Assembly (NCBI RefSeq): GCF_000299395.1
Contig: NC_018656.1
Coordinates: forward strand, 1,426,001 to 1,490,000
Source: Candidatus Nitrosopumilus sediminis
Lineage (GTDB): Archaea; Thermoproteota; Nitrososphaeria; Nitrososphaerales; Nitrosopumilaceae
Length of the DNA: 64,000 nt
Reading direction: 5' to 3'
In this document: positions 22,201-61,933 of the stretch, piece by piece
How positions within the stretch are numbered: the stretch's first letter is position 1
Layout of the letters: each line of letters starts with the position of its first letter
Position numbers and translations under genes: made by a program
Notes under the pieces: generated by a model
What the model was told of the DNA's origin: nothing
The model's input: the letters and a program-made list of their open reading frames with translations, nothing else
Database searches by the model: none

Positions 22201-23067
22201 TGTAATGGTTGGAGGAGTTGTATCACCTAACGTAACAACAAAGGAATGAGTTGATGTATTATCAGATTCTTCAGACTCTACAACATCATTATTGTAATCA
22301 GCAGTTGCAGTATTGATATATCCTTGCGCTACACTCAATGTCAAAGTTCGTGTTGCAACAAATGATTCACCAGGAGTCAATGAAGGTACGGTGAATAATG
22401 TTGCAGGAGTGCCAGGTGTTTCTCCACCTATTTTAAACATCAAAGTTGATTCTGGTGATGTTCCTGTTCCGGTATTAGTAACAGTTGTAGTAAATGTCAT
22501 AAGATCAGCTGTAGTAGGTTCTGCAGGAGAATGTGTCATAGCAGAGACTACAAGATTTGGATAAGTATCATATTCGACAACATATGAAAGAGAATGGTGG
22601 TTGTGATCATCATCTGATACATCGTTCCATTTTTTAGCACCAAAAGCGTTAAGTTCCGCATGATTTTCTGTCGTGCCACCGTTTGGTTCGCCAGCTAACC
22701 AATTAGTGTAAGAGAGAGGTTCTCCAGTTACCCACACAAATGTTCCTTCAAAGGATACATCTGTTAATCCAATATAAGCTCGATCACTGCCAACAAGTAG
22801 GTCAACACAGTCCTGTTCTGCTTGACTTGTTATGGTAACTAAATGTCCAGGTATTGAAATGGAATTAATTGTAAATGACAATGCTTGGGCTTCAGCATTT
22901 GCATTTGACCATGATTTGATCGTATTTGATATTGGTAAAAATTCATAATAATTACCAGTAGCAGCACATTGAGTTGGAGCAGCATAAGCAGTAGTAGCTG
23001 AAAATGTAAATAAAATTGCTATAGATAAAGTAACATACATAGTTAACTTACTTGTACTACCCACCAT
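16225..23067 (-). CDS. Giant secreted lectin / Ig / LamG / metzincin metalloprotease
   Basis: 2280 residues with a signal peptide (1-29). In order: a C-type lectin-like domain (about 35-170; W-V-T-G-E-P and N-W-x-x-G-E-P-N-G), a CARDB-like domain (about 172-280), at least three near-identical Ig-like repeats of 82 residues (280-540), HYR-type modules, a thrombospondin-3-like acidic turn (D-K-D-A-L-C-D-E-W, near 1205), two LamG-like domains (about 1360-1550 and 1575-1760), and a metzincin zinc site H-E-I-G-H-M-L-N-L-Q-H near 1958-1968 with a Met-turn S-I-M-G-Y near 1995. The whole looks like an adhesive, glycan-binding extracellular protease. A TATA box 24-33 bp before the ATG implies a leaderless message. 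The substrate is unknown. Confidence 0.85.
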   Translation of the reverse strand: MVGSTSKLTMYVTLSIAILFTFSATTAYAAPTQCAATGNYYEFLPISNTIKSWSNANAEAQALSFTINSISIPGHLVTITSQAEQDCVDLLVGSDRAYIGLTDVSFEGTFVWVTGEPLSYTNWLAGEPNGGTTENHAELNAFGAKKWNDVSDDDHNHHSLSYVVEYDTYPNLVVSAMTHSPAEPTTADLMTFTTTVTNTGTGTSPESTLMFKIGGETPGTPATLFTVPSLTPGESFVATRTLTLSVAQGYINTATADYNNDVVESEESDNTSTHSFVVTLGDTTPPTITAARAAGSEANANGWNNAAITITYTCTDNDSGVNATASDLSYDVLSTEGAGQSATGTCVDNAGNSADATINDINIDLTAPTITAARAAGSEANTNGWNNATVTVTYSAADALSGIDAAASDFADDVLSTEGAAQSATGTVTDLAGNSADATINDINIDLTAPTITANIPTPDGLTDVLGNNWYVTNPTVTFTCSDVISGVLDCQADELFTNDNPDQTFLGALVTDLAGNTATVDVVDIDVDTTPPVITVNVDPNDPYEAGTPYTDAGATATDNLGIVTSLTDDSVDIITEFPATLTVTYTAIDPAGNTSQDSRTVIVRDTTPPVLIFKIHGADRVEADELQQGNFQFNATASDLPRTTLPLVTCVDEDTVTHLDVAGGQNLVQVTFGLGITTVTCTADDGSNISPEDPTDPADVDTDSSSNDFIVSEIFLDEITNTTPKWDESLTVTGTVYGFLPGEHVNATFGTDAIDVIVPITGTDPDAGFVWEATHAFSKETSTTIQTIFAELVENPLYATSDSQDVTITKHPTQIIMTSPDIADGQIWGLEVTKSGSVVDTFYDSNPVIPGATVTFGNTGQGEFPFSLVALDGTFSETARTHLLTAPSGVTLSIDALFVDDFEDIPTVQFYESASTINDDYTTISHSTEITLDDIASVPAGTSITVTGTLFDTSLNPPEGLGDKQLTLTPVISNNPENNPEASVIIDDETAISVSHPIEISGNFEVTLDKILRLDTDDVLMFDSNPRFVVLTLTDMGNNEVEFLVTGPGMQLNTIANGQNLNDGKFTLEGNSGISRIEITSVSGTGTIGISKIDLVNSADTSIFDSDDDLGAKDSRVYTSDEDFFLGEGNYDTIGTTGSGESYTIEVTADFDGDANYDASLLSPTKSVTLGSNAGASNSGGGVTSITADAGIGILSISCTTDTDKDALCDEWESTGSGSGSGIPYEVNDATYYYSLPGTSTETPDLLLEIDSMVPHTPLKASIDAVVAAFETNGVNVIVTSLTSTDETIPHKDLLNVWKDDDNDFTNDFNSIKSRFFGDSTERVILGGTQSQNFGTQQLLLSFDGDVLDHSGNNNNDNDVVGSTTFVPGIDARAFNFDGSTIINQGSISSWPQLHDGSSYSLTFWIKSSDISNTPVILDTSNGGSKSAVGVTLFTRADGKINFQVTNGAGTGFVFSLISPPGAFKDDGEWHHYALTFDDSLPSNNAKLYVDGIQQDQRTALEAPSSSSQNKILTIGGLTGSNKLIGDMDDFRIYDHALDGNQLVNIFNSAVPDPITGYLFENESLIEDGFGENDGDVSGSMIFVDGIDGNAFGFDKSTVINQGTSSTWKLLNGDSPFSISAWIKSSDISNTPVLFDTSNGGSKSAVGMTLFTRADGKINFQVTNGAGTGFVTSLVSSPGAFKDDGEWHHYVVTWDNTLASDNAKLYVDNELVQVKSKSETASVSDHKKLLTIGGLTGSNKLIGDMDDVGIYDFALDDDQISALTETDTLLNSIVRISGITLTTPPNSATSPADSTEGTLTLNLKVTTAEPSTLSEDPFRVATVSGTDLTFDTPKVSTAITLEPNVHSLTVTVPYSTTGIVTDGDIGTITIPLKSSSFITDVQTSVGSPKTSTTLLDAKAQAYRYVMFVHSIGGSSGQAELRGNDAIVALGDGFSDSVVGHEGSIGSQSEQSGTLMHEIGHMLNLQHGGPRYLLSDPNTTLNTAAQNCVPIQDSIMGYTGQFSTYKGTDWNLDFASESGVTLNENTLTPGVTLTQTGNIVWATPSTDLQTFLKGPADGTSLDWNGDGVIDVSDTSASYDLNDYGISGCKASPGTVFEAHDEWSNLDFDFRQGPTGQFDGGELTSKLFKQQVLATLVTDIIPPLKLDGSDEINAGSTLPLKFTLHENTIEADSFVADNISAIVVKEGCLTAADGCPDGIYENLGFFTYQETSQQYHLNWNTDKDEVGIFGIKYVLPNPGADPEFITLIDSSNPIFFRVNGELVSISFESIDNIVKGKGKE
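17998..18200 (-). repeat. LamG-domain coding repeat (partner at about 18649-18851)
   Basis: About 200 bp are highly similar, with long identical stretches, to DNA 651 bp to the right within the same gene (offset 217 codons). It encodes the core of the two LamG-like domains. The near identity at DNA level suggests recent duplication or gene conversion. Confidence 0.7.
21707..21775 (-). repeat. Ig-domain coding repeat (identical copy at 21953-22021)
   Basis: A 69-bp stretch is identical to 21953-22021 (offset 246 bp, 82 codons) inside the giant secreted-protein gene. Flanking parts of the 82-residue unit are also very similar, including a third, more diverged unit around 22160-22210. Confidence 0.75.
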
Positions 23068-51177: not shown

Positions 51178-52031
51178 TTACTTTACAAGTTCCAAGAGTG
51201 CTTTTGCCTGTTTGAAATGAACCTCATCTATCATTTTTCCCTCAACAGTAGTGGCTCCCTTTCCCTTCTTTGTTGATTCAAGGTAAACTTTGCATACTTT
51301 TTCAGCCCATAATATTTCGCTTTTATTTGGATGAAATAGTTTGTGGACAATAGAAATTTGATCAGGGTGTATGATACTTTTTCCAGTATAACCTAAGCTT
51401 TTTCCTAATTTGCAGTCTTTTTCTAATCCTTTAGAATCTTTGAGATCCTGCCAAATAGAATCAATTACTGCTACACCTGCTGCATGTGCGTCAACTGGTA
51501 TTTTTCTTCGAGAATATTTTTCTCCTTCAGATTCTTTTGTATATTCTATTCCTAAATCATTTAACAAATCAAAAACACCAAAGACTACAGCAGGTATTCT
51601 TTTTCCATACGATGCAATATCATATGTGTTTACTACTCCTTCTGCAGATTCAATTGATGGGATAATTTGAATTGGTTTTAGTTTTTGGTTTTTTCTAAAC
51701 TGGATAGAATTTTTTCAATTTTTTTCATTTCTTTAACATTGTTCACTTTTGGGATTACAATTCCATCAATACCTTTTTGGACAATTTCTTTAAGATCAGA
51801 TGGAATTTTTCCAGAACTTGGAGAATTTGTTCTAACAAAAATTGAAGATTTGTATAGTTTTCTAGAATTTAATGCCGACTTGATTAATTTTCGTGCATTT
51901 ACTTTTTCATTATCTGGAACGGAATCTTCTAAATCAAAACAGACAATATCAGCTTGAAGGGTTTTAGCTTTTTCTAAGAATCTGGAATTATTTCCAGGTA
52001 CAAAAATTAGACTTCGAAAAAGCTGAGTCAT
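51178..52031 (-). pseudogene. HpcH/HpaI (CitE-like) aldolase/lyase, frameshifted
   Basis: The N-terminal part (52031-51678) has R-S-L-I-F-V-P-G-N-N-S-R, D-I-V-C-F-D-L-E-D-S-V-P and the Arg of F-V-R-T-N-S. The C-terminal part continues in another frame from about 51677 with P-I-Q-I-I-P-S-I-E-S-A-E-G-V and S-I-I-H-P-D-Q-I. One missing base near an A-run (51682-51694) breaks the frame; restoring it gives about 284 residues, the family size. CitE-like proteins cleave or form C-C bonds of acyl-CoA substrates such as malyl/citramalyl-CoA. It may be a sequencing error. Confidence 0.8.
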
Positions 52032-53448: not shown

Positions 53449-53901
53449 CTAAGAATATACTTTCAATTGTGGGTTTTCAACGATTAGTTCTTTAAGAATT
53501 TCTGTTGATAATCTATCGAGTTTTTGCATTCCTTGTTTGGAAATTCTACGTCCTTTCTTCTCAACTTTTTCTACATATCCAAGTTTTTCTAAACCTTGAA
53601 TTGCATTTCGAATAATTGCACCACCTGCATCTTTATGATGAGCAGCTCCATATCCAGAAGGTTTACCACCACCATAATCATTTCTTAAAGCATTAATTCC
53701 AATTGGACCGTTAAGGTAAATTTTTCTCATAATTGATGCACATCTAGTATGCCACCATTCTCTATCTTGTGGAGGCTTATCTGCATGAGCTCCAGTTTTA
53801 ACAAATGGAATCCAAGAAGGTGCAGGAATATCTTCATTTTTTAAAGCTGAAGCTAGTCTTTCAATCAATACATCTGCTGGGACATCGTAGACCTTTGCCA
53901 T
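53449..53901 (-). CDS. rps19e: Ribosomal protein S19e
   Basis: 150 residues. V-Y-D-V-P-A-D-V-L-I, W-I-P-F-V-K-T-G, W-W-H-T-R-C-A-S-I-M-R-K-I-Y, G-I-N-A-L-R-N-D-Y-G-G and G-R-R-I-S-K-Q-G form the full eS19 signature. Part of the small ribosomal subunit; found only in archaea and eukaryotes. Confidence 0.95.
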   Translation of the reverse strand: MAKVYDVPADVLIERLASALKNEDIPAPSWIPFVKTGAHADKPPQDREWWHTRCASIMRKIYLNGPIGINALRNDYGGGKPSGYGAAHHKDAGGAIIRNAIQGLEKLGYVEKVEKKGRRISKQGMQKLDRLSTEILKELIVENPQLKVYS

Positions 53902-54038
53902 AAAATGAAAAAATCGATAATCGTCTTATAAATCATTGAGATATTGAATCAAGTTTGTTCAACATATTTCAGCACAAATTCTCAGATCGGAGTTTTGTTT
54001 TTCCAATTTTTATCATACTGAGACTCAATTCCTATGGA

Positions 54039-54506
54039 TTAATCTTCAACAGGAAGAACTACAAGTTCCCCGCTCATAGTAGGTTGATGAAATGTACAAA
54101 TGTAATTGAAAATTCCACTTTTTGTTGCTGTAAACTCTATTACGATATTTTCTTCAGCATTGATATCTTCATGAATATTGTATGCAGGGTCATTAATTGT
54201 AAAAGTATGATGTTCTTGAGTTTCTACAGGCTCAAGATTGTAAAAATGGATTTTTACTTTATCTCCTTGATTAACAACGATAGTATCCTGAGAAAACATA
54301 TCTGGAGGAATTGCTAAACCTTCTTCCTCGATATTTTCATCAACTCTAGTAAACAAGTATACATCTCTTGTTTTAGGCACATAAGTTTCAGATTCATTGT
54401 AAATTTCGGGTTCTTCAAAAGTAATTGTAATCAAGATTCCAATAAAAGCAAGAACTAACGCAGATATGCTTATTCCCCACAATACACGGTTTGTCATGGT
54501 ACTCAA
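54039..54506 (-). CDS. Membrane-anchored cupredoxin (blue-copper protein)
   Basis: An N-terminal anchor helix (V-L-W-G-I-S-I-S-A-L-V-L-A) leads to a cupredoxin domain with copper ligands His in E-H-H-T-F and Cys-His-Met in Y-I-C-T-F-H-Q-P-T-M. I chose TTG 54506 because its distance to the upstream palindrome (37 bp) equals that of other genes in the group; ATG 54497 is the alternative. Such plastocyanin-like proteins carry electrons in ammonia oxidisers, outside the membrane. Confidence 0.85.
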   Translation of the reverse strand: MSTMTNRVLWGISISALVLAFIGILITITFEEPEIYNESETYVPKTRDVYLFTRVDENIEEEGLAIPPDMFSQDTIVVNQGDKVKIHFYNLEPVETQEHHTFTINDPAYNIHEDINAEENIVIEFTATKSGIFNYICTFHQPTMSGELVVLPVED

Positions 54507-54542
54507 TGTATCAAGTATACAAATGTATATTATAATCTTCAA

Positions 54543-54555
54543 TTAACATAGTTAA
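54543..54555. promoter_or_regulatory. Regulon palindrome, site 1 (TTAACATAGTTAA)
   Basis: Between divergent cupredoxin and zinc-finger genes. On both sides a 7-bp spacer leads to a TATA-like box (TTATAATA on the minus side, TTATATCA on the plus side). It is a one-base variant in the centre. Confidence 0.65.
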
Positions 54556-54595
54556 CCTATCCTTATATCACAATCATCAATTAACTATAACAGAA

Positions 54596-54880
54596 ATGAA
54601 AAATCCCTTTAGTAAAAAAAATAATTGTACTCAATGTGATTCAAAATTTTCAAGTCATGAGGATTTAGTTATACATGTGAGACATGAGCATCACAAAACT
54701 ATTGTAAAATGTCAGAAATGTGGTAAAGAGTTCATACATGAAAAAGACAGATTACACCATACAAGAAAAGAACATGAGGAAGAAATGAGAGAGCGTTCTC
54801 ATAAAAAATCATATCCAGATGAATATAAAACTCAAAACAGAGTGGATAAATTTAGAGCTAGGTTTAGTGACAAACTCTAG
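54596..54880 (+). CDS. C2H2 zinc-finger protein (94 aa)
   Basis: Two classical fingers: C-T-Q-C ... H-V-R-H-E-H (about 11-31) and C-Q-K-C ... H-H-T-R-K-E-H (about 39-60), then a charged tail. Archaeal C2H2 proteins of this kind are likely DNA- or RNA-binding. Driven in the plus direction from site 1 (41 bp). Confidence 0.8.
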   Translation: MKNPFSKKNNCTQCDSKFSSHEDLVIHVRHEHHKTIVKCQKCGKEFIHEKDRLHHTRKEHEEEMRERSHKKSYPDEYKTQNRVDKFRARFSDKL

Positions 54881-54910
54881 TCGTATTTTTTAGAAAGTAA
54901 AAATCTACAA

Positions 54911-54997
54911 CTATCCCAAAATAATAAATCCCAATAGCAGAGCACTACAGATTGCAGTACCAATAGCCATTAGTTTTCTTTGCGAAAGTTTGTTCAA
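54911..54997 (-). CDS. Single-helix membrane micro-protein (28 aa)
   Basis: TTG at 54997, TAG at 54911. A short basic head (N-K-L-S-Q-R-K) and one hydrophobic helix (A-I-G-T-A-I-C-S-A-L-L-L-G-F-I-I-L-G). It starts 15 bp after the cupredoxin stop at 55013 and could be co-expressed, for example as a small partner subunit. Confidence 0.45.
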   Translation of the reverse strand: MNKLSQRKLMAIGTAICSALLLGFIILG

Positions 54998-55012
54998 TGA
55001 TCAATCAAATCT

Positions 55013-55495
55013 TTATTCAGATACGGTAATGGTTCCCTTCATATCAGGATGAATTGAACAATAATAATCAAAAGTACCCAGTTTGTCTGCCACAAACGTA
55101 ATTGATTCTGATTGAAAGTATCCAAGATCTTTTGTATGTACGTTAAATTCATCAATATTCAAATTATGTTTTGATGGATTATTGGGTTGATTTCGGTCTT
55201 CATTGATCAAATGAAGTTGAATAAGGTTATCCTGTGATACAGAAATTGAAGGGGATATGCCTTCTGCAGAGCCTGTGGTCTTTCCTCCTTTAGCATGTTG
55301 ATAATGGTAATTTCCATTTGAGGAAGATACTGCTTTTAAAAATACATTTGATGATGGTGCAAAAACAAGATTATCAGAATTAACAGGACTAAAAGAATTT
55401 AGAGTAACTACACCTATCAAAATAATTACTCCTGCAACAACACTCACTGAGATAATCGTTCCTCGGGATATTTTAGAAGGTTTTTTCTTTTTCAA
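55013..55495 (-). CDS. Membrane-anchored cupredoxin (blue-copper protein), second copy
   Basis: 160 residues with a TTG start at 55495. A basic head, one anchor helix (about 13-32), then a cupredoxin fold with copper ligands His (S-K-H-N-L-N) and Cys-His-Met (Y-Y-C-S-I-H-P-D-M). The start lies 37 bp from palindrome site 2. Function as an electron carrier or copper-dependent enzyme part is inferred. Confidence 0.85.
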   Translation of the reverse strand: MKKKKPSKISRGTIISVSVVAGVIILIGVVTLNSFSPVNSDNLVFAPSSNVFLKAVSSSNGNYHYQHAKGGKTTGSAEGISPSISVSQDNLIQLHLINEDRNQPNNPSKHNLNIDEFNVHTKDLGYFQSESITFVADKLGTFDYYCSIHPDMKGTITVSE

Positions 55496-55531
55496 TAATT
55501 AATAGGCAATTTGTTTGCATATACACAATGA

Positions 55532-55544
55532 TTAACAATGTTAA
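55532..55544. promoter_or_regulatory. Regulon palindrome, site 2 (TTAACAATGTTAA)
   Basis: Midway between the divergent cupredoxin (minus start 37 bp away) and zinc-finger (plus start 36 bp away) genes. TATA-like boxes GTATATGC (minus) and CTAAAAAG (plus) follow 7 bp on each side. Confidence 0.75.
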
Positions 55545-55579
55545 GGAACCGCTAAAAAGAATATTTTCTAAAAAAGATT

Positions 55580-55735
55580 ATGGGATTCACTAAAATTTGT
55601 CCCTTGTGCTCACAGGCTTTTGTGTCACTTGAGACATATATGTCACATATCAAAAACAACCACAGTAAAGAATCTCCTGAAGAATTTGTAAAAAACCATG
55701 GTGAGATAAAATGGTCATTTAGGAATGATAGATAA
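55580..55735 (+). CDS. C2H2 zinc-finger micro-protein (51 aa)
   Basis: One finger, C-P-L-C ... H-I-K-N-N-H (residues 7-28), in a 51-residue protein ending W-S-F-R-N-D-R. First gene on the plus side of site 2; probably leaderless. Part of the regulon's set of tiny zinc proteins. Confidence 0.7.
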   Translation: MGFTKICPLCSQAFVSLETYMSHIKNNHSKESPEEFVKNHGEIKWSFRNDR

Positions 55736-55760
55736 TGTGTGGAAATGAAGGTTTGATGAT

Positions 55761-55850
55761 ATGAGAAAGTGTATAGTTTGTGGTAAAAATTTTGAGCATT
55801 GGTACAATGATGTATGCTCTACAGAATGTTCAAATGAATTAGAAGACTGA
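55761..55850 (+). CDS. Zinc-binding micro-protein (29 aa)
   Basis: ATG at 55761, TGA at 55850. C-I-V-C and C-S-T-E-C (residues 4-7 and 19-23) can form a single zinc knuckle, with H-W-Y-N between. It follows the previous zinc-finger gene by 25 bp and is likely in the same message. Very short, so confidence is limited. Confidence 0.5.
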   Translation: MRKCIVCGKNFEHWYNDVCSTECSNELED

Positions 55851-55906
55851 GATTAATTATGAATTATAGGAAATTCATTCAAAAAAAATATTCTTAAAAT
55901 TTAGCA

Positions 55907-56026
55907 TAATGTAGAAGCCAAAAATGACAGTTTGTATGAAATAGGATGAATTGAACCCTAGGAATCAGCAAGAGGTGTATTCATTCTAGGAATTATGCAT
56001 CGTTGGCTACATTGACTTCTACATTA
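55907..56026 (-). ncRNA. Candidate small RNA A, closed by an 11-bp stem
   Basis: TAATGTAGAAG and CTTCTACATTA, 98 bp apart, pair perfectly. On the minus strand the element begins at the same distance (35 bp) from palindrome site 3 as start codons do elsewhere, with CTAAATATC as TATA box, and it ends near a T-rich stretch. ATG is followed at once by TAG, so it does not encode a peptide from that start. It shares both ends with element B, including a compensating T-A to C-G change. Confidence 0.55.
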
Positions 56027-56060
56027 CAAAGTGTACAATATTTTGATATTTAGTATTCAC

Positions 56061-56073
56061 TTAACATTGTTAA
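56061..56073. promoter_or_regulatory. Regulon palindrome, site 3 (TTAACATTGTTAA)
   Basis: The minus-side promoter (7-bp spacer, CTAAATATC) points at small RNA A. The plus-side promoter (7-bp spacer, CTAAATACT) points at 56107 onward, where a GTG-started 31-codon frame and an 8-bp stem are found. Confidence 0.7.
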
Positions 56074-56109
56074 TTATTATCTAAATACTAGAGTTTGAAA
56101 ATAATTGTG

Positions 56110-56165
56110 GCGAGAACAATTCATCTTGGTAAATATTACTGCTTGTTCATTCAACAAGTTCTCGC
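56110..56165. repeat. Inverted repeat between site 3 and the insertase gene end
   Basis: GCGAGAAC and GTTCTCGC pair over 56 bp, with an inner CTTGTT/AACAAG hairpin. It may be the terminator of the EMC3/YidC-like gene (minus) or part of a short plus-strand transcript from site 3. A 31-codon GTG frame also runs through it. Undecided. Confidence 0.4.
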
Positions 56166-56839
56166 TAAGACATATTCATTGAAGTCTTTGTTAGTTTCAT
56201 AATAATTCCACTAAATGATATGGAAGATAGGAAATACCAAGCCCATAGATATAGAGCATTTTCTTTTCCAAAGCAAATATGTTCAACATCCAAAGCTTGT
56301 TCTGCAGTACATGTGAGTTGAAAGAAATTTCCAGGAATTACATTCAGAGAAATTGGAGAAAATGCAACAGTATAAGAAAATAGTTGTGGCAATACAAGAT
56401 AAAATATCAAAATAAGTGGAACAAAGGTAATCATCATAGGTCGCATGTTCATCTGCATCATCTCCATTGACATTTTGTTCATGTATGATGATTTTTTTCC
56501 TAGCTCTGCAATCTTTGCTTGATCTTTTGCTCTCATTGCAGCCATTCTTTCTTTTTGCCATCCTTTGGTTTCTTTCATAATTCGTTGTAGTTTATCTTGA
56601 TCAACCATCTTCTTTCTAACCATTGAATTGAAAATATTCAAAACAATTCCAAATCCAGTTACTCCAAATAATGATAAAATTGCTCCCTTTACGATTGGAT
56701 CATCGCTTCCTAGTGCCTGCCTATTTTGACTCATAAATGAAAAAATTCCTCCATCATCTCCTTGAAGAAATACATTATCGAGAAAAAACAAGATGAAATT
56801 GTAATCTAAATAATCAATCATACAATACTCATCTCTCAT
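56165..56839 (-). CDS. EMC3/TMCO1-like (DUF106) membrane insertase, YidC superfamily
   Basis: 224 residues. A first helix region, a cytoplasmic helical hairpin (K-L-Q-R-I-M-K-E-T-K-G-W-Q-K-E-R and M-N-K-M-S-M-E-M-M-Q-M-N-M-R-P-M-M) and three further helices are the archaeal DUF106 plan, which inserts membrane proteins. The N-terminal 45 residues look longer than usual for the archaeal family. Second gene after the DUF1059-like gene, 7 bp gap, under site 4. Confidence 0.8.
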   Translation of the reverse strand: MRDEYCMIDYLDYNFILFFLDNVFLQGDDGGIFSFMSQNRQALGSDDPIVKGAILSLFGVTGFGIVLNIFNSMVRKKMVDQDKLQRIMKETKGWQKERMAAMRAKDQAKIAELGKKSSYMNKMSMEMMQMNMRPMMITFVPLILIFYLVLPQLFSYTVAFSPISLNVIPGNFFQLTCTAEQALDVEHICFGKENALYLWAWYFLSSISFSGIIMKLTKTSMNMS

Positions 56840-56846
56840 ATTTGAT

Positions 56847-57008
56847 CTATGATTTTCTCAGAATAAACTGCATCAAAGATTCTTTGGAATAGTCTATCCC
56901 ATGTTCTTCATCAGTGTGTTTGCCAAATTTCTCAAGTACATTCTCTACTTCCCCTTCTACTACAAAATCACACTCAAACCCATAATCATTGCACTTTAGT
57001 TTTACCAA
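56847..57008 (-). CDS. DUF1059-like small protein (53 aa)
   Basis: TTG at 57008, TAG at 56847. L-K-C-N-D-Y-G-F-E-C-D-F then E-E-H-G-I-D-Y-S-K-E-S align with the 63-residue protein at 37590. The start is 38 bp from palindrome site 4. It precedes the insertase gene. The function of the family is not known to me. Confidence 0.7.
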   Translation of the reverse strand: MVKLKCNDYGFECDFVVEGEVENVLEKFGKHTDEEHGIDYSKESLMQFILRKS

Positions 57009-57045
57009 TCATAATTTTCTTAAATTTGCAAGTAATATACTTCAG

Positions 57046-57058
57046 TTAACATTGTTAA
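57046..57058. promoter_or_regulatory. Regulon palindrome, site 4 (TTAACATTGTTAA)
   Basis: Minus side: 7-bp spacer then ATATTACT, start codon of the DUF1059-like gene 38 bp away. The plus side has only a poor box (AATACAAA) and faces the 3' end of small RNA B. Confidence 0.7.
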
Positions 57059-57076
57059 CTCAAATAATACAAAAAA

Positions 57077-57181
57077 TAATGCAGAAGCAGTAGGAAATTA
57101 TCACGTCTTAGGTGTAAATGAAACTAGAATAACAATTCATAGTCATGGATTTCCTCTCTGGAGTGAGTCGCCTCTGCATTA
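57077..57181 (-). ncRNA. Candidate small RNA B, sister of element A
   Basis: TAATGCAGA and TCTGCATTA pair at the ends of a 105-bp element. The ends match element A (5' TAATG-Y-AGA-R-G, 3' GCTTCT-R-CATTAT on the minus strand) with Y-R changing together (T-A in A, C-G in B). The distance to palindrome site 5 is 35 bp, as for element A, with a CTAAATATC box. A T6 run follows the 3' end on the minus strand. A 23-codon frame starts at the ATG and is an alternative reading. Confidence 0.55.
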
Positions 57182-57215
57182 AATCTAATTGAGTTTATTG
57201 ATATTTAGAATATGC

Positions 57216-57228
57216 TTAACAATGTTAA
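57216..57228. promoter_or_regulatory. Regulon palindrome, site 5 (TTAACAATGTTAA)
   Basis: Overlaps the stop codon of the zinc-ribbon gene at 57225. Its minus-side promoter (7-bp spacer, CTAAATATC) points at small RNA B. No plus-side promoter is seen, as that side is coding DNA. Confidence 0.7.
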
Positions 57229-57425
57229 GGGATATTTTTTTTTCTAGATCGTTTATTTCTTGATTTGGTTCTGAGACGTGCACCACAACAAGGACATCCA
57301 AGCTTTGAGGTTTTAACAAAAACTGAACACATTGTACATCTTTTATGTCCTGATTCATAACGTAAAGCAGTAGAAACGGATTCAATTTCCAAGGCATCAC
57401 ATATTCCCTTACAAGAAAAAGTCAT
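57225..57425 (-). CDS. Zinc-ribbon protein (66 aa)
   Basis: C-K-G-I-C (5-9), Y-E-S-G-H-K-R-C-T-M-C, and L-G-C-P-C-C-G-A-R-L-R-T-K-S-R with a basic tail. Paralogue of the zinc ribbons at 35445 and 61119. It starts 2 bp after a 34-residue gene in the same operon, under site 6. The basic tail suggests RNA or DNA contact. Confidence 0.75.
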   Translation of the reverse strand: MTFSCKGICDALEIESVSTALRYESGHKRCTMCSVFVKTSKLGCPCCGARLRTKSRNKRSRKKNIP

Positions 57426-57427
57426 TT

Positions 57428-57532
57428 CTATGAAAATCTACTCCTTCCAATCTGAGACTTTTCCAATCTCCACCAATCTTTATTTTTTTTATCTGCAAGA
57501 TTTTCTTCTTCGCAATCTTCTTGTTTTTTCAT
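57428..57532 (-). CDS. Charged micro-protein (34 aa)
   Basis: ATG at 57532, TAG at 57428. K-K-Q-E-D-C-E-E-E-N, then W-W-R-L-E-K-S-Q-I-G-R-S-R. The start is 36 bp from palindrome site 6 and the zinc-ribbon gene follows after 2 bp, so placement argues that it is real. No family is known. Confidence 0.5.
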   Translation of the reverse strand: MKKQEDCEEENLADKKNKDWWRLEKSQIGRSRFS

Positions 57533-57567
57533 AGAATTACTGATATTGAATTTGTAATAAAACTAAA

Positions 57568-57580
57568 TTAACAATGTTAA
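57568..57580. promoter_or_regulatory. Regulon palindrome, site 6 (TTAACAATGTTAA)
   Basis: Minus side: start codon of the 34-residue gene 36 bp away. Plus side: 7-bp spacer, CTAAATACT box, and a GTG-started frame 37 bp away that runs into the membrane-protein gene. Confidence 0.7.
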
Positions 57581-57616
57581 GTATTTGCTAAATACTATAA
57601 TGAAGCAAATCACATA

Positions 57617-57712
57617 GTGGCATTCAAGAGAAATTTTAATAGTCCTTTAACTTTAATTTGTCTAAAGAGAATGAAAGAAAGTAATTTGGAGATAAGTAAA
57701 TTTGTCCGATAA
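57617..57712 (+). CDS. Possible micro-protein (31 aa) ahead of the membrane-protein gene
   Basis: GTG at 57617, TAA at 57712, basic product (M-A-F-K-R-N-F-N-S-P-L-T-L). It begins at the regulon's standard distance (37 bp) from site 6 and its stop overlaps the TTG start of the next gene. Supported by promoter geometry only. Confidence 0.35.
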   Translation: MAFKRNFNSPLTLICLKRMKESNLEISKFVR

Positions 57713-58070
57713 TAGAAACAACATCCTAAGTTCCATGGATCTTTTTATTGAGAAAATTCAACATCTCAAAGGAATGATGTTGGGAGTTTCGTTTTCAGCC
57801 CTCATTTTAGCTCCTCTAGCAATAGGGATCTCAGCATATCTAATTACACACCCAAAGTTTCTTCTATTAGTTGAAAGTGAAGGAGAATTTGCATTACTCT
57901 TGACAATTTTACTAACTGTGGTGCTAGTTACTTCTGGAATTTGGTTGGTTGCAGGCATACAACAATTCAGATCTCTTAGTTCTTGGAACAAGAGATATTG
58001 TAGTTATTTGAAGAAACGAGAAGATTTGGATAGGAATATTTCTTTAAAATATAATCTAGATGAGGAATAA
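57702..58070 (+). CDS. Two-helix membrane protein (122 aa)
   Basis: TTG start at 57702. Two hydrophobic helices (about 25-47 and 62-85) with charged ends, then a cytoplasmic-looking tail with K-K-R-E-D-L-D-R-N. No known family. It ends directly against the converging winged-helix gene. Confidence 0.6.
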   Translation: MSDNRNNILSSMDLFIEKIQHLKGMMLGVSFSALILAPLAIGISAYLITHPKFLLLVESEGEFALLLTILLTVVLVTSGIWLVAGIQQFRSLSSWNKRYCSYLKKREDLDRNISLKYNLDEE

Positions 58071-58385
58071 TTATTCAAGATTTTCCACATTAGATCTACC
58101 ACTTCTTGGGAATAATTTTTCAAAAGGTTCTATAATTTCATTACAAAAATCTATTCCTTTATGAGTTACCTTAAAGATGGTGATAGTTCTCTTCCCATCA
58201 ACAGTTTCTATTCTTTGTATCATTTCATTTTTTTCAAGATTATCCAAAATTTGTTTGTGTTTTGTAATGTTTAATCCACAAAAACTAAACAATGCAGTCT
58301 GATTAAGTTGACCGTACTCAGATAGAGTCAAAATAATATCTTTTATGATGTAAATTCGTTCACGATATTTTTTTGTAACAGTCAA
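58071..58385 (-). CDS. Winged-helix DNA-binding protein (104 aa)
   Basis: TTG start at 58385. I-I-L-T-L-S-E-Y-G-Q-L-N-Q-T-A-L, I-T-K-H-K-Q-I-L-D-N-L (recognition helix) and T-V-D-G-K-R-T-I-T-I-F-K-V-T (wing) make a compact winged helix as in small archaeal and viral regulators. The start is 53 bp from palindrome site 7, not the usual 36. As the only DNA-binding regulator of classic type in the cluster it is a candidate regulator of the palindromes. Confidence 0.75.
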   Translation of the reverse strand: MTVTKKYRERIYIIKDIILTLSEYGQLNQTALFSFCGLNITKHKQILDNLEKNEMIQRIETVDGKRTITIFKVTHKGIDFCNEIIEPFEKLFPRSGRSNVENLE

Positions 58386-58437
58386 TAATTGAATTAGCCA
58401 TATTTGCTACTTTAACTATTGGGGCAATATAGCACAA

Positions 58438-58450
58438 TTAACAATGTTAA
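58438..58450. promoter_or_regulatory. Regulon palindrome, site 7 (TTAACAATGTTAA)
   Basis: Plus side: 7-bp spacer, ATTATAAC box, ATG of the zinc-finger gene exactly 36 bp away. The minus side faces the winged-helix regulator gene, which may be under its control. Confidence 0.75.
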
Positions 58451-58485
58451 GCAACGCATTATAACAAATAATTGGCATTGTTTGT

Positions 58486-58659
58486 ATGGAATCTAATTTT
58501 TCGTTTGGGAAAATCAGAATAAAAAACATTTTCAAAAAAGGTACTGTGTTTACAAATAAATGTAAAATATGTGGACTAAAATTCACAGATCCTCAAAGAA
58601 CTGAAAAACATATGATTAAAGCACATTCAAAGCCAAAACGTGAAAAACAAAATCACTGA
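58486..58659 (+). CDS. C2H2 zinc-finger micro-protein (57 aa)
   Basis: ATG at 58486, TGA at 58659. One finger C-K-I-C ... H-M-I-K-A-H (residues 26-46) with basic flanks (K-I-R-I-K-N-I-F-K-K and K-P-K-R-E-K). It is first in an operon with the Lrp-type protein that starts 2 bp after its stop. Confidence 0.7.
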   Translation: MESNFSFGKIRIKNIFKKGTVFTNKCKICGLKFTDPQRTEKHMIKAHSKPKREKQNH

Positions 58660-58661
58660 AA

Positions 58662-59195
58662 ATGGCAAAAGCATATGTTCTAATGAATTGTGATTTAGGT
58701 TCAGAAAAAGAGATTATTGCAACACTTGAAAAAATTGAAGGAGTAAAGGAAGTTCATGGTACACTTGGAATGTACGATATTATTGCACAAATAGAATCAG
58801 AAAACGAAGAGAAAATTAGAGAGATAATCACTAAAACCATTCGTAAAATGCCAAAAATTCGTTCTACTATGACCTTGACTCGTTCTGAATCTGAAGAATT
58901 TTTTAAAACATCAGAGAAATTAATTGGAATGATGTTAGGACATAATCTTGCTCAGGCATATGTAGTGATTCACTGTAACAAAGGTGAAGAATATCCTACA
59001 TTAAAGAATCTCAGTCACATACCAGAGGTAAAAGAAGCAGATGTAGTTTTTGGATTTTATGATGTTATCTGTAAAATAGAGGCAACAGATGACAAAACAT
59101 TAGAAGACATAACAACCAAAGCAATACGAAAATTACCTAACATTGAATCCAGTATGACATTAAACATTATCAATGAACAAGACTCTGATAATTAA
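58662..59195 (+). CDS. Double Lrp/AsnC ligand-binding (RAM) domain protein without DNA-binding domain
   Basis: 177 residues, two RAM domains in tandem (about 1-78 and 94-170): A-Y-V-L-M-N-C-D-L-G-S-E-K and A-Y-V-V-I-H-C-N-K-G-E-E, each followed by V-x-x-x-x-G-x-Y-D-[IV]-I-[AC]-x-I-E. It lacks the helix-turn-helix of Lrp. It may sense amino acids and act through a partner such as the coupled zinc-finger protein. Confidence 0.85.
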   Translation: MAKAYVLMNCDLGSEKEIIATLEKIEGVKEVHGTLGMYDIIAQIESENEEKIREIITKTIRKMPKIRSTMTLTRSESEEFFKTSEKLIGMMLGHNLAQAYVVIHCNKGEEYPTLKNLSHIPEVKEADVVFGFYDVICKIEATDDKTLEDITTKAIRKLPNIESSMTLNIINEQDSDN

Positions 59196-59246
59196 AATAT
59201 CAGATGGGTATTTGAGGTATAGAATATATCACAGAATAGATAAATT

Positions 59247-59558
59247 TTGAATCCATTATTTCAACTCAGTACAAGAAGTTATGAAAAAGAAATCCCCATT
59301 GTAAGACAAGCATTAGCAGACTTGGAAACTGAATGCAACATACATAATGGATATAAAATTGGAGATTCATTTGAAAAATTTGGTTGGACATTTTTTAATA
59401 TTCAGATTAGTGAAGAACTAACAAAAATAATTGAAGAGTCAGGAATGATGAAAGGAGCATTAGGGCGTAAAATAGAAGAACAAATGACCAATTTCATGGG
59501 ACATTATCTAGAAACTAAAGGTAGTAAAGTAAGAATAAAAATGATCAATTACGGATAA
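59247..59558 (+). CDS. Hypothetical protein (103 aa)
   Basis: TTG start at 59247. A small alpha/beta cytoplasmic protein with one visible cysteine (E-T-E-C-N-I-H-N) and F-G-W-T-F-F-N-I-Q-I. Not recognised. It converges on the next gene with no gap. Confidence 0.55.
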   Translation: MNPLFQLSTRSYEKEIPIVRQALADLETECNIHNGYKIGDSFEKFGWTFFNIQISEELTKIIEESGMMKGALGRKIEEQMTNFMGHYLETKGSKVRIKMINYG

Positions 59559-61037
59559 TTAAGAAGTGATTTTTATTATTCCTTCTTTGATCAAAAACTG
59601 TATTCCTTGAATGAATGAATCATCGTTTATTTGTCCTGCTGCCCACCATTCTGCATTGTTTTTAATCCATGAAGGAATTTCATTTGAACCAGAACTTGTA
59701 CCTTGTTCTGTCGAAGGAATTTGCAATACATCTTCTTTGATCAAAAACTGTATTCCTTGAATGAATGAATCATCGTTTATTTGTCCTGCTGCCCACCATT
59801 CTGCATTGTTTTTAATCCATGAAGGAATTTTAGAAGGTAAAGTAACAGAATTATCTAATTGAACAAGAAGAGGATTTTCTGAAATTTCAATATCTATAGT
59901 GATATATCCTCCCATAGTAGCATCAGGGATTTCATATTCTGAACCCGTTCCATGAACAAAAATTACATAATGAATTATTCCTGCATTTTCTTCAACTGGA
60001 AGAAGAAGATGAACTTGTCCAAAACCATTAAACAAATCTGCACGACCAATATCTTCTGCATATGAACGGAGACGGTTACCCTTTTCGTCAACTACCCAAA
60101 TATCATAATGGACTTGATCAATAAATTCCACATCATTGTACTTGTTCATGAAGTTTATTTTCCAATCAATATCACATCCTTCAATAGGAAATTCTGGAGA
60201 ATAATTATACTGTATTGTCATGGAAAATGTGTTTGTAGCTTCACGACCGCTAATATAATCATGAAAGTTAGTATCACAATCCAACAAATCTTCTTTTAGT
60301 ATAGTTGATTCAACATCCTTGAATGGGTCATCAATTACATTTTCTTTATAATCTAACAATGTATATTGATGCATTATTGGAGCAATGCCTGTAGTAACCC
60401 ATGCATATGTTAATGCCTTGACAGGATAAGGGAAATCATCAACTATCCAAATTTCATTATTGTTACCACTATACCAGCCAACAACAACTGCATCTGCAGT
60501 TCCAGCAGGAGTAGTTATTGTTTCAGTGCGTTTAGGAATTAATTGCCCACCTCCAATAGCACCAATTTTACCCCATGCTGCATCGCTAAACTTTTGTGGT
60601 CCATGTATTCGATCATCTTCATTTGCAGTAGCAAAAGCAGATAACCATGCCAAGGAGGATTTGAATGCAATGGCATAATGAAATAGATTATCATCAAAAG
60701 TTACTGGTTCAGGGGAGTTTTTACCAAGACCCATTGAGCCTTTAATTATTTTATTGCCGTCAATAACTACGACTTTTGCATCCCATAGCGATTCACTTTC
60801 ATTTTGTATATCTCCTTTAATCCAAAATTTTATTTTGATAGGAGCACAGTCATTAAGATCGATTTCACAAAGAGAGTATTCAAAATAATCTCCAATTGCA
60901 AGACCTTCTCCCAAATACCAAGAACCATCTACATTTACACCTCCAGCTGTTTGAACGCCTTGTCCATAAGATAGATTAGAATACCCTACACTGAACAAAA
61001 TAACTAATAGACTAGATAATACCAGATAAAACTTCAT
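59559..61037 (-). CDS. Secreted surface protein with two nearly identical W-x-K-N-N-A-E-W-W modules
   Basis: 492 residues. The signal peptide (1-25) ends Y-G-Q-G. A beta-rich body (G-S-W-Y-L-G-E-G-L-A-I-G-D-Y-F near 36) resembles thaumarchaeal secreted proteins. The last 90 residues hold two copies of I-P-S-W-I-K-N-N-A-E-W-W-A-A-G-Q-I-N-D-D-S-F, 50 residues apart and identical over 99 bp. The start is 36 bp from palindrome site 8. Confidence 0.75.
   Translation of the reverse strand: MKFYLVLSSLLVILFSVGYSNLSYGQGVQTAGGVNVDGSWYLGEGLAIGDYFEYSLCEIDLNDCAPIKIKFWIKGDIQNESESLWDAKVVVIDGNKIIKGSMGLGKNSPEPVTFDDNLFHYAIAFKSSLAWLSAFATANEDDRIHGPQKFSDAAWGKIGAIGGGQLIPKRTETITTPAGTADAVVVGWYSGNNNEIWIVDDFPYPVKALTYAWVTTGIAPIMHQYTLLDYKENVIDDPFKDVESTILKEDLLDCDTNFHDYISGREATNTFSMTIQYNYSPEFPIEGCDIDWKINFMNKYNDVEFIDQVHYDIWVVDEKGNRLRSYAEDIGRADLFNGFGQVHLLLPVEENAGIIHYVIFVHGTGSEYEIPDATMGGYITIDIEISENPLLVQLDNSVTLPSKIPSWIKNNAEWWAAGQINDDSFIQGIQFLIKEDVLQIPSTEQGTSSGSNEIPSWIKNNAEWWAAGQINDDSFIQGIQFLIKEGIIKITS
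59582..59680 (-). repeat. 99-bp exact direct repeat (second copy 59732-59830)
   Basis: Identical 99-bp segments, 150 bp apart, encode the two C-terminal modules of the secreted protein. Perfect identity at third codon positions indicates recent duplication or active gene conversion. Confidence 0.85.
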
Positions 61038-61072
61038 TACAAATTTATCAATTATGAGCTATTAAGCATGGA

Positions 61073-61085
61073 TTAACATTGTTTA
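61073..61085. promoter_or_regulatory. Regulon palindrome, site 8 (TTAACATTGTTTA)
   Basis: One mismatch from the palindrome. Minus side: start of the secreted-protein gene 36 bp away with TTAATAG box. Plus side: ATG of the zinc-ribbon gene 34 bp away with TTATCTTT box. Confidence 0.65.
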
Positions 61086-61118
61086 CCTATGTTTATCTTT
61101 AAACATGTCAGATATTCT

Positions 61119-61328
61119 ATGTTGAGTTACTGTACAGGTAAATGTAAGCAATACAAAGCTCTCAAGCCAAGACAAATTGGTAGGTATGCATCAGGACAAA
61201 AAAGATGTAATTTTTGTGAAATATTTCTAAATTTTGATGGATTAAAGTGTCCTTGTTGCAATAAACAACTAAGATCTCTACCTAGAAGTAGAAAAGATAA
61301 GGAATCATTTCTAGCTCAAATTGCATAA
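61119..61328 (+). CDS. Zinc-ribbon protein (69 aa)
   Basis: Start set at ATG 61119, which fits the regulon spacing and starts just before the first cysteines; an upstream ATG at 61089 is less likely. C-T-G-K-C, Y-A-S-G-Q-K-R-C-N-F-C and L-K-C-P-C-C-N-K-Q-L-R-S match the proteins at 35445 and 57225. Function unknown; basic tail. Confidence 0.75.
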   Translation: MLSYCTGKCKQYKALKPRQIGRYASGQKRCNFCEIFLNFDGLKCPCCNKQLRSLPRSRKDKESFLAQIA

Positions 61329-61351
61329 TCCTAGATTCAGAGATATGTAGA

Positions 61352-61364
61352 TTAACAATGTTAA
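61352..61364. promoter_or_regulatory. Regulon palindrome, site 9 (TTAACAATGTTAA)
   Basis: Plus side: CTAAAAGG box after an 8-bp spacer and ATG 37 bp away. The whole promoter down to ATGGGATT closely resembles that of site 2, so one may be a copy of the other. Confidence 0.7.
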
Positions 61365-61400
61365 GGAAACCACTAAAAGGAACATTTTTTAAAAATATTC

Positions 61401-61478
61401 ATGGGATTAGGAATAAAAATTATAATATTTGCAATCGTAGCAATTCTTGTACAGATTTTTGGTATTGTTTTATTGTAA
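61401..61478 (+). CDS. Single-helix membrane micro-protein (25 aa)
   Basis: ATG at 61401, TAA at 61478. Apart from one Lys it is one hydrophobic helix (I-I-I-F-A-I-V-A-I-L-V-Q-I-F). It starts 37 bp from site 9. The promoter supports it; the product may modify a membrane complex. Confidence 0.5.
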   Translation: MGLGIKIIIFAIVAILVQIFGIVLL

Positions 61479-61506
61479 TTATGTCTCTCAATCATAGATT
61501 TGAATA

Positions 61507-61809
61507 CTATTGAGATATAATTTTGCGATAAGTATGCCCACACAAGTTACAAGAAATTCTGATCGACTTGACAGATGCTCTTCCTAAACGAATTCGAGAA
61601 TTTATTCCAGGCGCAATGAAGGATTTACATTTTTTGCAAAAAACCATTCTGAGATTATATGGCATTCGGATTTTGTGTCTAGTACTTATCCTTCTAGCAA
61701 TAGAAGCTTGTTTTTGAGAAAGTTCAGGATTAGTCTTTGCATTACTAATTGCATTTTCGATAAGAATTTCCATTCTTTCCATTGCAATTTTTTTTGCTCC
61801 AAGTTTCAC
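61507..61809 (-). CDS. rnp4: RNase P protein component 4 (Rpp21 family)
   Basis: 100 residues. A helical N-terminus with A-R-R-I-S-T-R-H-K-I-R-M-P, then a zinc ribbon F-C-K-K-C-K-S-F ... I-S-C-N-L-C-G-H. It binds the RNase P RNA for tRNA 5' processing. A tRNA gene lies just upstream on the same strand. Confidence 0.92.
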   Translation of the reverse strand: MKLGAKKIAMERMEILIENAISNAKTNPELSQKQASIARRISTRHKIRMPYNLRMVFCKKCKSFIAPGINSRIRLGRASVKSIRISCNLCGHTYRKIISQ

Positions 61810-61859
61810 AGCAATCTTTGAAACTACACCTAAAAATTAGTTCTCATAGAGTAAAACAA

Positions 61860-61933
61860 TGCAGTCAGCGGGATTCGAACCCGCGTCACAGGGTTGGAAA
61901 CCCCGAATACTAACCAGGCTATACTATGACTGC
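61860..61933 (-). tRNA. tRNA-Gly (anticodon TCC)
   Basis: Acceptor stem GCAGTCA/TGACTGC, a D arm with weak G-T pairs, anticodon stem CGGGG/CCCTG with loop TTTCCAA (anticodon TCC), and T arm GCGGG-TTCGAAT-CCCGC. Discriminator A at 61860; no CCA is encoded and there is no intron. Confidence 0.95.

Follow-up and report, generated by a model that had tools for sequence, protein, structure and literature searches.

A 6.8-kb island in the genome of Candidatus Nitrosopumilus sediminis carries nine copies of a short palindrome that is an operator-like site beside promoters, and the best reading of the island is a local regulon, confined to one clade, that has a winged-helix regulator of its own and includes a new structured RNA. 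The stretch of DNA analyzed (hereafter, the window) comprises 64,000 nucleotides, positions 1426001–1490000 of a single-contig genome of 1,690,905 bases, with a window G+C content of 33.9%; the island spans window positions 54543–61364, and coordinates below are those of the window unless noted. Judging from sequence and its conservation, the palindrome is likely to be the operator of the winged-helix protein encoded at 58071–58385. Ammonia-oxidizing archaea are numerous and play an important part in the nitrogen cycle, and among the matches listed in our search of the open literature (most subscription papers and preprints fall outside it) there was no described operator–regulator pair for these organisms, nor any description of the regulon, the palindrome, or the RNA. 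The specific operator, a candidate regulator encoded by one gene, the target list, and the small RNA family are all open to testing in vitro, and would together show how microproteins and RNAs are brought into a small regulon and rearranged about a single short palindrome.

The palindrome is clustered in one island

The original prediction placed the motif at nine positions, and all nine are present. Seven sites are exact (TTAACAATGTTAA/TTAACATTGTTAA; 55532, 56061, 57046, 57216, 57568, 58438, and 61352), one is a palindrome with the center ATA (54543), and one has a single-base mismatch in an arm (61073). Across the 1.69-Mb genome, exact TTAACAWTGTTAA has seven matches, all in the island, and TTAACNNNGTTAA has 10, eight of them inside these 6.8 kb; the reversed patterns, used as genome-wide controls for motif counts, have 1 and 26 matches, respectively. 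Allowing one mismatch in TTAACAWTGTTAA adds 13 places for a total of 20, which is below the control's 29, so the signal lies in the exact form and its clustering rather than in overall abundance. Among these 13 places are the island sites 54543 and 61073, as well as 51733, which is in the window but inside an open reading frame (ORF). Within the window, TTAACNNNGTTAA with at most one mismatch has 15 matches, compared with a mean of 4.06 and a maximum of 9 in 100 dinucleotide shuffles. Six of the 15 lie outside the island (2471, 4250, 18419, 33437, 40907, and 51733), and among these an AWT center occurs only at 51733, within the listed ORF 51678–52031.

The exact form is thus absent outside the island in the source genome, and in this form the motif is not equally common elsewhere, the finding by which the prediction could have been overturned. 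Chance, or the composition of AT-rich intergenic DNA, might be suspected from the G+C content of the window and from the one-mismatch count (20 against 29 in the control), but this explanation is rejected by the clustering of 8 of 10 genome sites within 6.8 kb, by recurrence in other genera (below), and by the dinucleotide shuffles; we consider it next to impossible. Outside the island, TTAACNNNGTTAA is found at 2 places only, compared with 26 genome-wide for the reversed control, and the operator is perhaps avoided elsewhere.

The palindrome abuts promoters

To describe the flanks we used 180 flanks of exact or ATA/TAT-centered sites from the window and 20 stretches fetched from 17 related genomes (21 stretches in all), every fetched stretch having been picked for motif presence. 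(Sampled genomes are labeled G###, with the source genome as G000, contig C1; stretches from relatives L###; and genera g#.) Counting from the palindrome edge, T stands at +9 in 84% of the flanks and A at +10 in 70%, and G+C content falls below 10% at +9 to +13. A script assigned start codons to 127 of the 180 flanks, 35 of them at +35, 19 at +36, and 77 at +34 to +38; of the 19 at +36, eight represent spurious ORFs within the small RNA R1 (see below), and elsewhere some assigned starts belong to gene ends or to ORFs that arise by chance. The palindrome's position directly upstream of a TATA-like box, often between divergent promoters, holds as originally described and recurs in three genera.

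In the window, 10 of the 12 measured protein starts lie 33–40 bp from a palindrome (35 four times, 36 three times, and 37, 40, and 33 once each, the last for ORF 61089–61328 restarted at the ATG at 61119). The regular spacing first proposed therefore stands for these 10 starts, and not for cupredoxin A (45 bp), the winged-helix gene (52 bp), or the sides that lack an ORF promoter: the forward side of 57216 meets a gene end and has no promoter, and structured elements with no clear ORF are found to the left of 57216 and on either side of 56061. Because the TATA-like box lies about 25 bp ahead of the start codon, transcripts should be nearly leaderless, as was also proposed. Upstream of the winged-helix gene, a conserved AATAGTTAAAG element is set some 14 bp farther from the palindrome, with the start mostly at +49 to +53. 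With its TATA-like element displaced in this way, the regulator's own control should differ from that of the other genes.

The claim of a regulon is borne out as far as the shared operator-like site goes, with two amendments: in this genome the sites are gathered in one local island and not dispersed, and several of the promoters face structured RNAs. The earlier reading was also incomplete in that it proposed no regulator and missed both the structured RNAs and the exchange of partners at the palindromes.

A winged-helix protein is the candidate regulator

The proposed regulator is a 104-amino-acid protein encoded on the reverse strand (58071–58385), whose listed TTG start may not be the true start. 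It passes the gathering cut-off of the Pfam family HTH_45 (PF14947; 27.4 bits, cut-off 25.5) and no other island protein that was scanned has a DNA-binding domain scoring above the Pfam cut-off. Scores for the MarR family (PF01047; 20.8 bits, cut-off 24.6) and the NCBIfam Sso10a_fam (26.9 bits, cut-off 60) fall short, and there is no TrmB DNA-binding domain among its Pfam matches up to an E-value of 0.1. A sequence search against solved structures gave weak matches (best E-value 0.1, peroxiredoxins among them), which we treated as noise.

The AlphaFold model is confident (mean predicted local distance difference test score 87.2). Its top Foldseek matches are MarR and PadR proteins (PadR 5zi8, template-modeling score 0.75), and Sso10a-2 (4hw0_A) superposes at 1.4 Å over 82 columns. 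The protein thus resembles Sso10a of Sulfolobus in fold and in its HTH_45 domain; unlike it, the island protein is tied to a specific palindrome, and its score falls below the cut-off of the NCBIfam family, which is named a chromatin protein. Small MarR/PadR winged helices bind palindromes as dimers.

A different protein could read the palindrome, either one of the C2H2-like zinc fingers of the island or an unlinked regulator, with the winged-helix gene a passenger or a target. The zinc finger at 58486 and a 122-amino-acid membrane gene occur in nearly the same set of clusters as the winged-helix gene, and five genomes outside the three genera that hold the dense clusters have at least three sites and no close homolog of the winged-helix protein. 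Against this, the two-fold symmetry of the site is more readily matched by a winged-helix dimer than by short zinc fingers acting singly, and only the winged-helix protein, among those scanned in the island, has a Pfam DNA-binding domain above its cut-off. We regard another reader as unlikely, and continue with the winged-helix protein as the candidate.

Palindromes and regulator co-occur in relatives

We sampled 200 genomes of the family (119 of good quality) and 250 genomes of the class (62 genera). At least one exact TTAACAWTGTTAA occurs in 117 of the 200 family genomes (71 of the 119 of good quality), many with only one or two, like the control. Dense clusters are found in three genera (g1, g4, and g14), where intervals are often about 870, 350, and 170–190 bp among the matches listed. 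Most palindromes in the 20 fetched stretches adjoin gene families that flank them in the window too, and some neighbors are unnamed. Candidatus Nitrosopumilus salaria BD31 shares the core of the island and carries seven exact sites. Three or four exact palindromes each are also present in G028, G145, G148, and G157 (g9) and in G060 (g12).

Homologs of the winged-helix protein (E-value ≤0.001) are found in 125 of the 200 family genomes and close homologs (at least 75% identity) in 23, all belonging to g1, g4, or g14; named records with a close homolog are mostly Nitrosopumilus and Nitrosarchaeum, including BD31. At least three exact sites are present in 21 of the 23 genomes with a close homolog (G086 and G125 have fewer), compared with 6 of 177 without. 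The contrast persists within the three genera (68 genomes), at 21 of 23 compared with 1 of 45, and within g1, where the 12 genomes with a close homolog have 2–9 exact sites and the 33 without have 0–2 (26 of them none). These genomes are related by descent, so the Fisher values for the three genera are descriptive only, and, given also the linkage of the genes concerned, the counts support the pairing without proving it. More distant homologs in G022 and G053 (59–61% identity) have a palindrome 40 and about 51 bp upstream, respectively. The island has come apart in G030 and G149, where part of the targets with their palindromes lie 100–110 kb from the winged-helix gene; as the same gene families stand by the palindromes there, action in trans is possible.

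Several observations weigh against this pairing. At least three exact sites occur without a close homolog in G110 (g14), G028, G145, G148, and G157 (g9), and G060 (g12), six genomes among which the promoter position of the sites was looked at in G110 only. No palindrome lies within 130 bp upstream of the winged-helix gene in L162, L163, and L165, and none is found upstream of the five homologs, about 60% identical, from g9 and g17 (L085, L087–L090). The promoter of the winged-helix gene itself has the shifted geometry noted above. With respect to the RNA R1, G125 has a regulator homolog and no R1 match, and G140 has R1 and no homolog was found. Because the regulator gene is linked to the 122-amino-acid membrane gene and to several targets, the winged-helix protein cannot be picked out by co-occurrence alone. 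As a control we looked at loci of a target family, that of the AsnC/Lrp ligand-binding (RAM) protein, which support the pairing weakly because the family is rich in paralogs. No palindrome with up to one mismatch occurs at nine RAM homolog loci in genomes without a close regulator (G158, G114, G183, G152, G119, G187, G185, G189, and G155), whereas genomes with one have it at 3 of 4 loci (G000, G181, and G195, with none at the G146 copy). In all there are 21 RAM loci; seven more, from genomes not tested for the regulator, have no palindrome, and G201 has both regulator and palindromes.

Activation is favored over repression

If the winged-helix protein reads the palindrome, we infer from the position of the site, with moderate confidence, that it activates. 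A dimer would bind the 13-bp site, the edge of which is some 7 bp ahead of the TATA box, abutting the transcription factor B (TFB) recognition element (BRE); the center of the site would be near −42 if transcription begins at the start codon. The bound dimer would help to recruit TFB and the TATA-binding protein (TBP), and one or two divergent leaderless transcripts would be activated. The regulon would comprise small metal-binding proteins (zinc fingers, zinc ribbons, and DUF1059), cupredoxins, a membrane insertase, membrane microproteins, the RAM-domain protein, and structured small RNA (R1 and probably R2 and R3). A metal or redox program for these targets is plausible.

Known archaeal activators offer parallels. 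Ptr2 and TFB-RF1 have few targets and are regulators unrelated to the winged-helix protein. The available excerpts of one paper describe Ptr2 (Methanocaldococcus) and TFB-RF1 (Pyrococcus) as activating via TBP or TFB from upstream of BRE/TATA, and Tgr and TrmBL1 as activating from that position (PMC4158304). A close likeness is the Thermococcales glycolytic motif of Tgr/TrmBL1, a palindrome ahead of BRE/TATA at several archaeal operons in an activating position; that motif (TATCACN5GTGATA), its protein family, and its target genes differ from those of the island, and the same excerpts do not mention small RNAs for it (PMC4158304).

The same regulator could instead repress, the dimer blocking TFB/TBP where it abuts BRE and being released by a metal or redox signal at two cysteines, C36 and C81. 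Over 25 homologs C81 is invariant and C36 nearly so, and we speculate that the pair may be a redox or metal switch. The Foldseek matches include the zinc-responsive ZitR and AbfR, which is solved in reduced and oxidized forms, and small MarR/PadR proteins often repress. Pyrococcus furiosus TrmB represses from a site at BRE/TATA, but in the excerpts of the same source sites upstream of BRE/TATA activate and those at or downstream of it repress (PMC4158304), and the 7-bp gap in the island keeps the TATA box free. Repression is a rather improbable case within the reading of the winged-helix protein as regulator, and activation by that protein is what we carry forward.

The island encodes a conserved, probably structured RNA

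Leftwards of the palindrome at 57216 lies a 99-nucleotide element between TGCAGAGGC and GCTTCTGCA whose start is at the position expected of a leaderless message. This small RNA, R1 (57077–57181, reverse strand), starts 34 bp from the palindrome and has a 9-bp terminal stem, P1, an inner helix, P2, and then a T-run. R1 represents a conserved RNA family without an Rfam entry and, from its pattern of conservation, is probably structured. An Rfam scan of the window returned transfer RNA only, and in a permissive scan of 53900–61900, which covers R1, R2, and R3, all else was below threshold.

The outer stem P1 and conserved internal blocks are common to the aligned R1 homologs from 25 genomes. P1 is nearly invariant and shows no covariation, with two-sided change in none of its nine pairs. 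The strands of P2 differ among homologs yet remain complementary (AGGAAAT/ATTTCCT, AGGAAAG/CTTTCCT, AGAGAAAA/TTTTCTCT, and GGGAAT/ATTCCC). The P2 score exceeds the mean of 100 interior shuffles in all 25 homologs and is reached by at most 10% of shuffles in 22, the weaker cases being L069 (14%), L053 (22%), and L073 (34%). A wide helix search gave a best helix other than P2 in the window and in L073; the window still holds AGGAAAT/ATTTCCT. The stem of a second candidate small RNA, R2 (55908–56025, reverse strand; TGTAGAAGTC with GGCTTCTACA), is P1-like and differs from P1 in sequence with pairing retained, including an exchange of C-G for U-A; four copies of R2 were found. A third candidate, R3 (56109–56166, forward strand), has a 9-bp terminal stem and, among the scanned loci, is found only here and in L041. 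By sequence and placement, R2 and R3 are probably small RNAs of the same regulon. They stand back to back on one palindrome (56061–56073).

A covariance model of R1 matches 27 of the 200 family genomes at an E-value ≤0.01, including a weak match in G164 without a palindrome. The 36 rows of matches include five opposite-strand duplicates and so stand for 31 places; 25 of these, chosen for the palindrome, built the model. Of the six places outside the model set (G032, G105 C5, G105 C15, G195 C128, G195 C29, and G164), five have a palindrome with at most one mismatch about 34 bp upstream. Within g1, g4, and g14, R1 is present in 22 of 23 genomes with a close homolog of the winged-helix protein and in 4 of 45 without (5 of 45 counting G164), and three of these four (G099, G110, and G130) have a homolog of 56–57% identity. 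A class-wide search at an E-value of 0.001 found R1 in 22 of 250 genomes and 3 of 62 genera; every positive belongs to this family and had been among the earlier R1 matches.

Other identities for R1 were rejected. A microprotein gene is rejected as the main reading: ORFs that begin with the ATG at the leaderless position run for 14–44 codons, and their frames are not kept, since indels between homologs are not multiples of three and the conserved blocks CUACUCCA and CCUAG-UUUUCAUUUACUGCC fall in different frames, a judgment that rests on printed translations of the homologs. In a simple search for antisense targets, the loop complement (16 bases, allowing three mismatches) has 18 and 21 matches on the two strands, compared with 19 and 21 for the reversed control. 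With regard to a viral origin, two IMG/VR stretches match half of the R1 pattern, without a palindrome (up to one mismatch) or island genes. As a known RNA, R1 has no Rfam match.

Modules change partners at the palindromes

Comparison of the stretches shows that the same promoters are paired differently in different genomes. The palindrome before a 34-amino-acid microprotein also serves the 122-amino-acid membrane gene in 12 listed stretches (the window, L041–L044, L046, L048, L049, L051, L156, L159, and L160), and in most g1 stretches the palindrome before R1 abuts the end of the zinc-ribbon gene. In L054, L055, L056, L057, and L060 (g4 and g14) the microprotein instead has its palindrome in common with R1, and in four of these (L054, L055, L057, and L060) it is the end of the zinc-ribbon gene that adjoins the membrane gene. 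The partner of the winged-helix gene is zinc finger 58486 in 15 listed stretches and DUF1059 in L054 and L060. The far end of R1 faces DUF1059 (13 stretches), zinc finger 58486 (L058–L060), or zinc finger 55580 (L052). By eye, promoter halves are recognizable right up to the palindrome, so the palindrome is where the rearranged parts meet. Either recombination at the palindrome or mere selection for intact promoters could account for these joints.

These exchanges could mean that the palindromes are recombination or mobile-element repeats, such as units like miniature inverted-repeat transposable elements or an invertible array, and that their position at promoters is secondary. R1 has terminal inverted repeats, and there are three matches to it in each of G105 and G195. 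However, the TATA and start spacing is constant across many unrelated genes, R1 remains in the island in three genera, and no recombinase was recognized by eye in the ORF list of the window, where no dedicated search was made. We consider this explanation very improbable. A combined picture is a possibility that we advance tentatively: a modular array hinged on the palindrome, in which the operator would act both as the shared control of divergent leaderless promoters and as the exact joint for cassette inversion and partner exchange during evolution, and in which the new RNA family, among the most widely retained products of the array, would work with the small zinc, copper, and membrane proteins as one Nitrosopumilaceae program.

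Genes of the island

The leftmost palindrome (54543–54555, center ATA, a variant that as ATA/TAT also occurs in L050) lies between cupredoxin A, probably membrane-anchored (54039–54497, reverse strand, ATG at 54497; PF13473), and a small C2H2-like zinc-finger protein (54596–54880, forward). The next (55532–55544) similarly separates cupredoxin B (55013–55495, reverse; PF13473) from a 51-amino-acid C2H2-like zinc finger (55580–55735, forward). Both zinc fingers, like the third described below, score below the Pfam cut-off. After the palindrome between R2 and R3, that at 57046–57058 serves an operon of a DUF1059 protein (56847–57008, reverse; PF06348) and, beside it, an EMC3/TMCO1-like membrane insertase (56165–56839, reverse; PF01956), and that at 57216–57228 leads leftwards to R1.

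The palindrome at 57568–57580 has on one side the 34-amino-acid microprotein (57428–57532, reverse), followed by a zinc-ribbon-like protein (57225–57425, reverse; cysteines seen by eye, no Pfam match). On the other side are a 31-amino-acid ORF (57617–57712, forward), the place of which is kept better than its sequence, and the 122-amino-acid protein (57702–58070, forward; no Pfam match), assigned to the membrane by hydrophobic stretches seen by eye. Neither this nor a 103-amino-acid protein received a name from NCBIfam or Pfam. The palindrome at 58438–58450 separates the winged-helix gene from a 57-amino-acid C2H2-like zinc finger (58486–58659, forward) and a stand-alone protein with two stretches matching the AsnC/Lrp ligand-binding domain (58662–59195, forward; PF01037).

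At the right end, the palindrome with one mismatch (61073–61085) lies 35 bp from the start of a probable secreted protein, recognized by eye (59559–61037, reverse), and faces a zinc-ribbon-like paralog (61119–61328, forward), restarted at the ATG at 61119 in frame with the listed ORF at 61089. The last palindrome (61352–61364) precedes a 25-amino-acid hydrophobic membrane microprotein (61401–61478, forward), which is 83–92% identical in L041, L045, L047, and L048 (L158 is on the same contig as L048) and, along a portion of the sequence, 67–68% identical in L049 and L050.

Elsewhere in the source genome, the RAM query has 11 matches, and further AsnC/Lrp-type ligand-binding proteins are encoded at genome positions C1:1354225–1354985, 1369525–1369758, and 1400689–1400937. 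In the window, the predicted secreted proteins at 13213–16138 and 59559–61037 have in common a repeated C-terminal motif, W-I/V-K-N-N-A-x-W-W-A, and two very large proteins, at 943–6045 (1700 amino acids) and 16225–23067 (2280 amino acids), are probable surface proteins, both observations having been made by eye.

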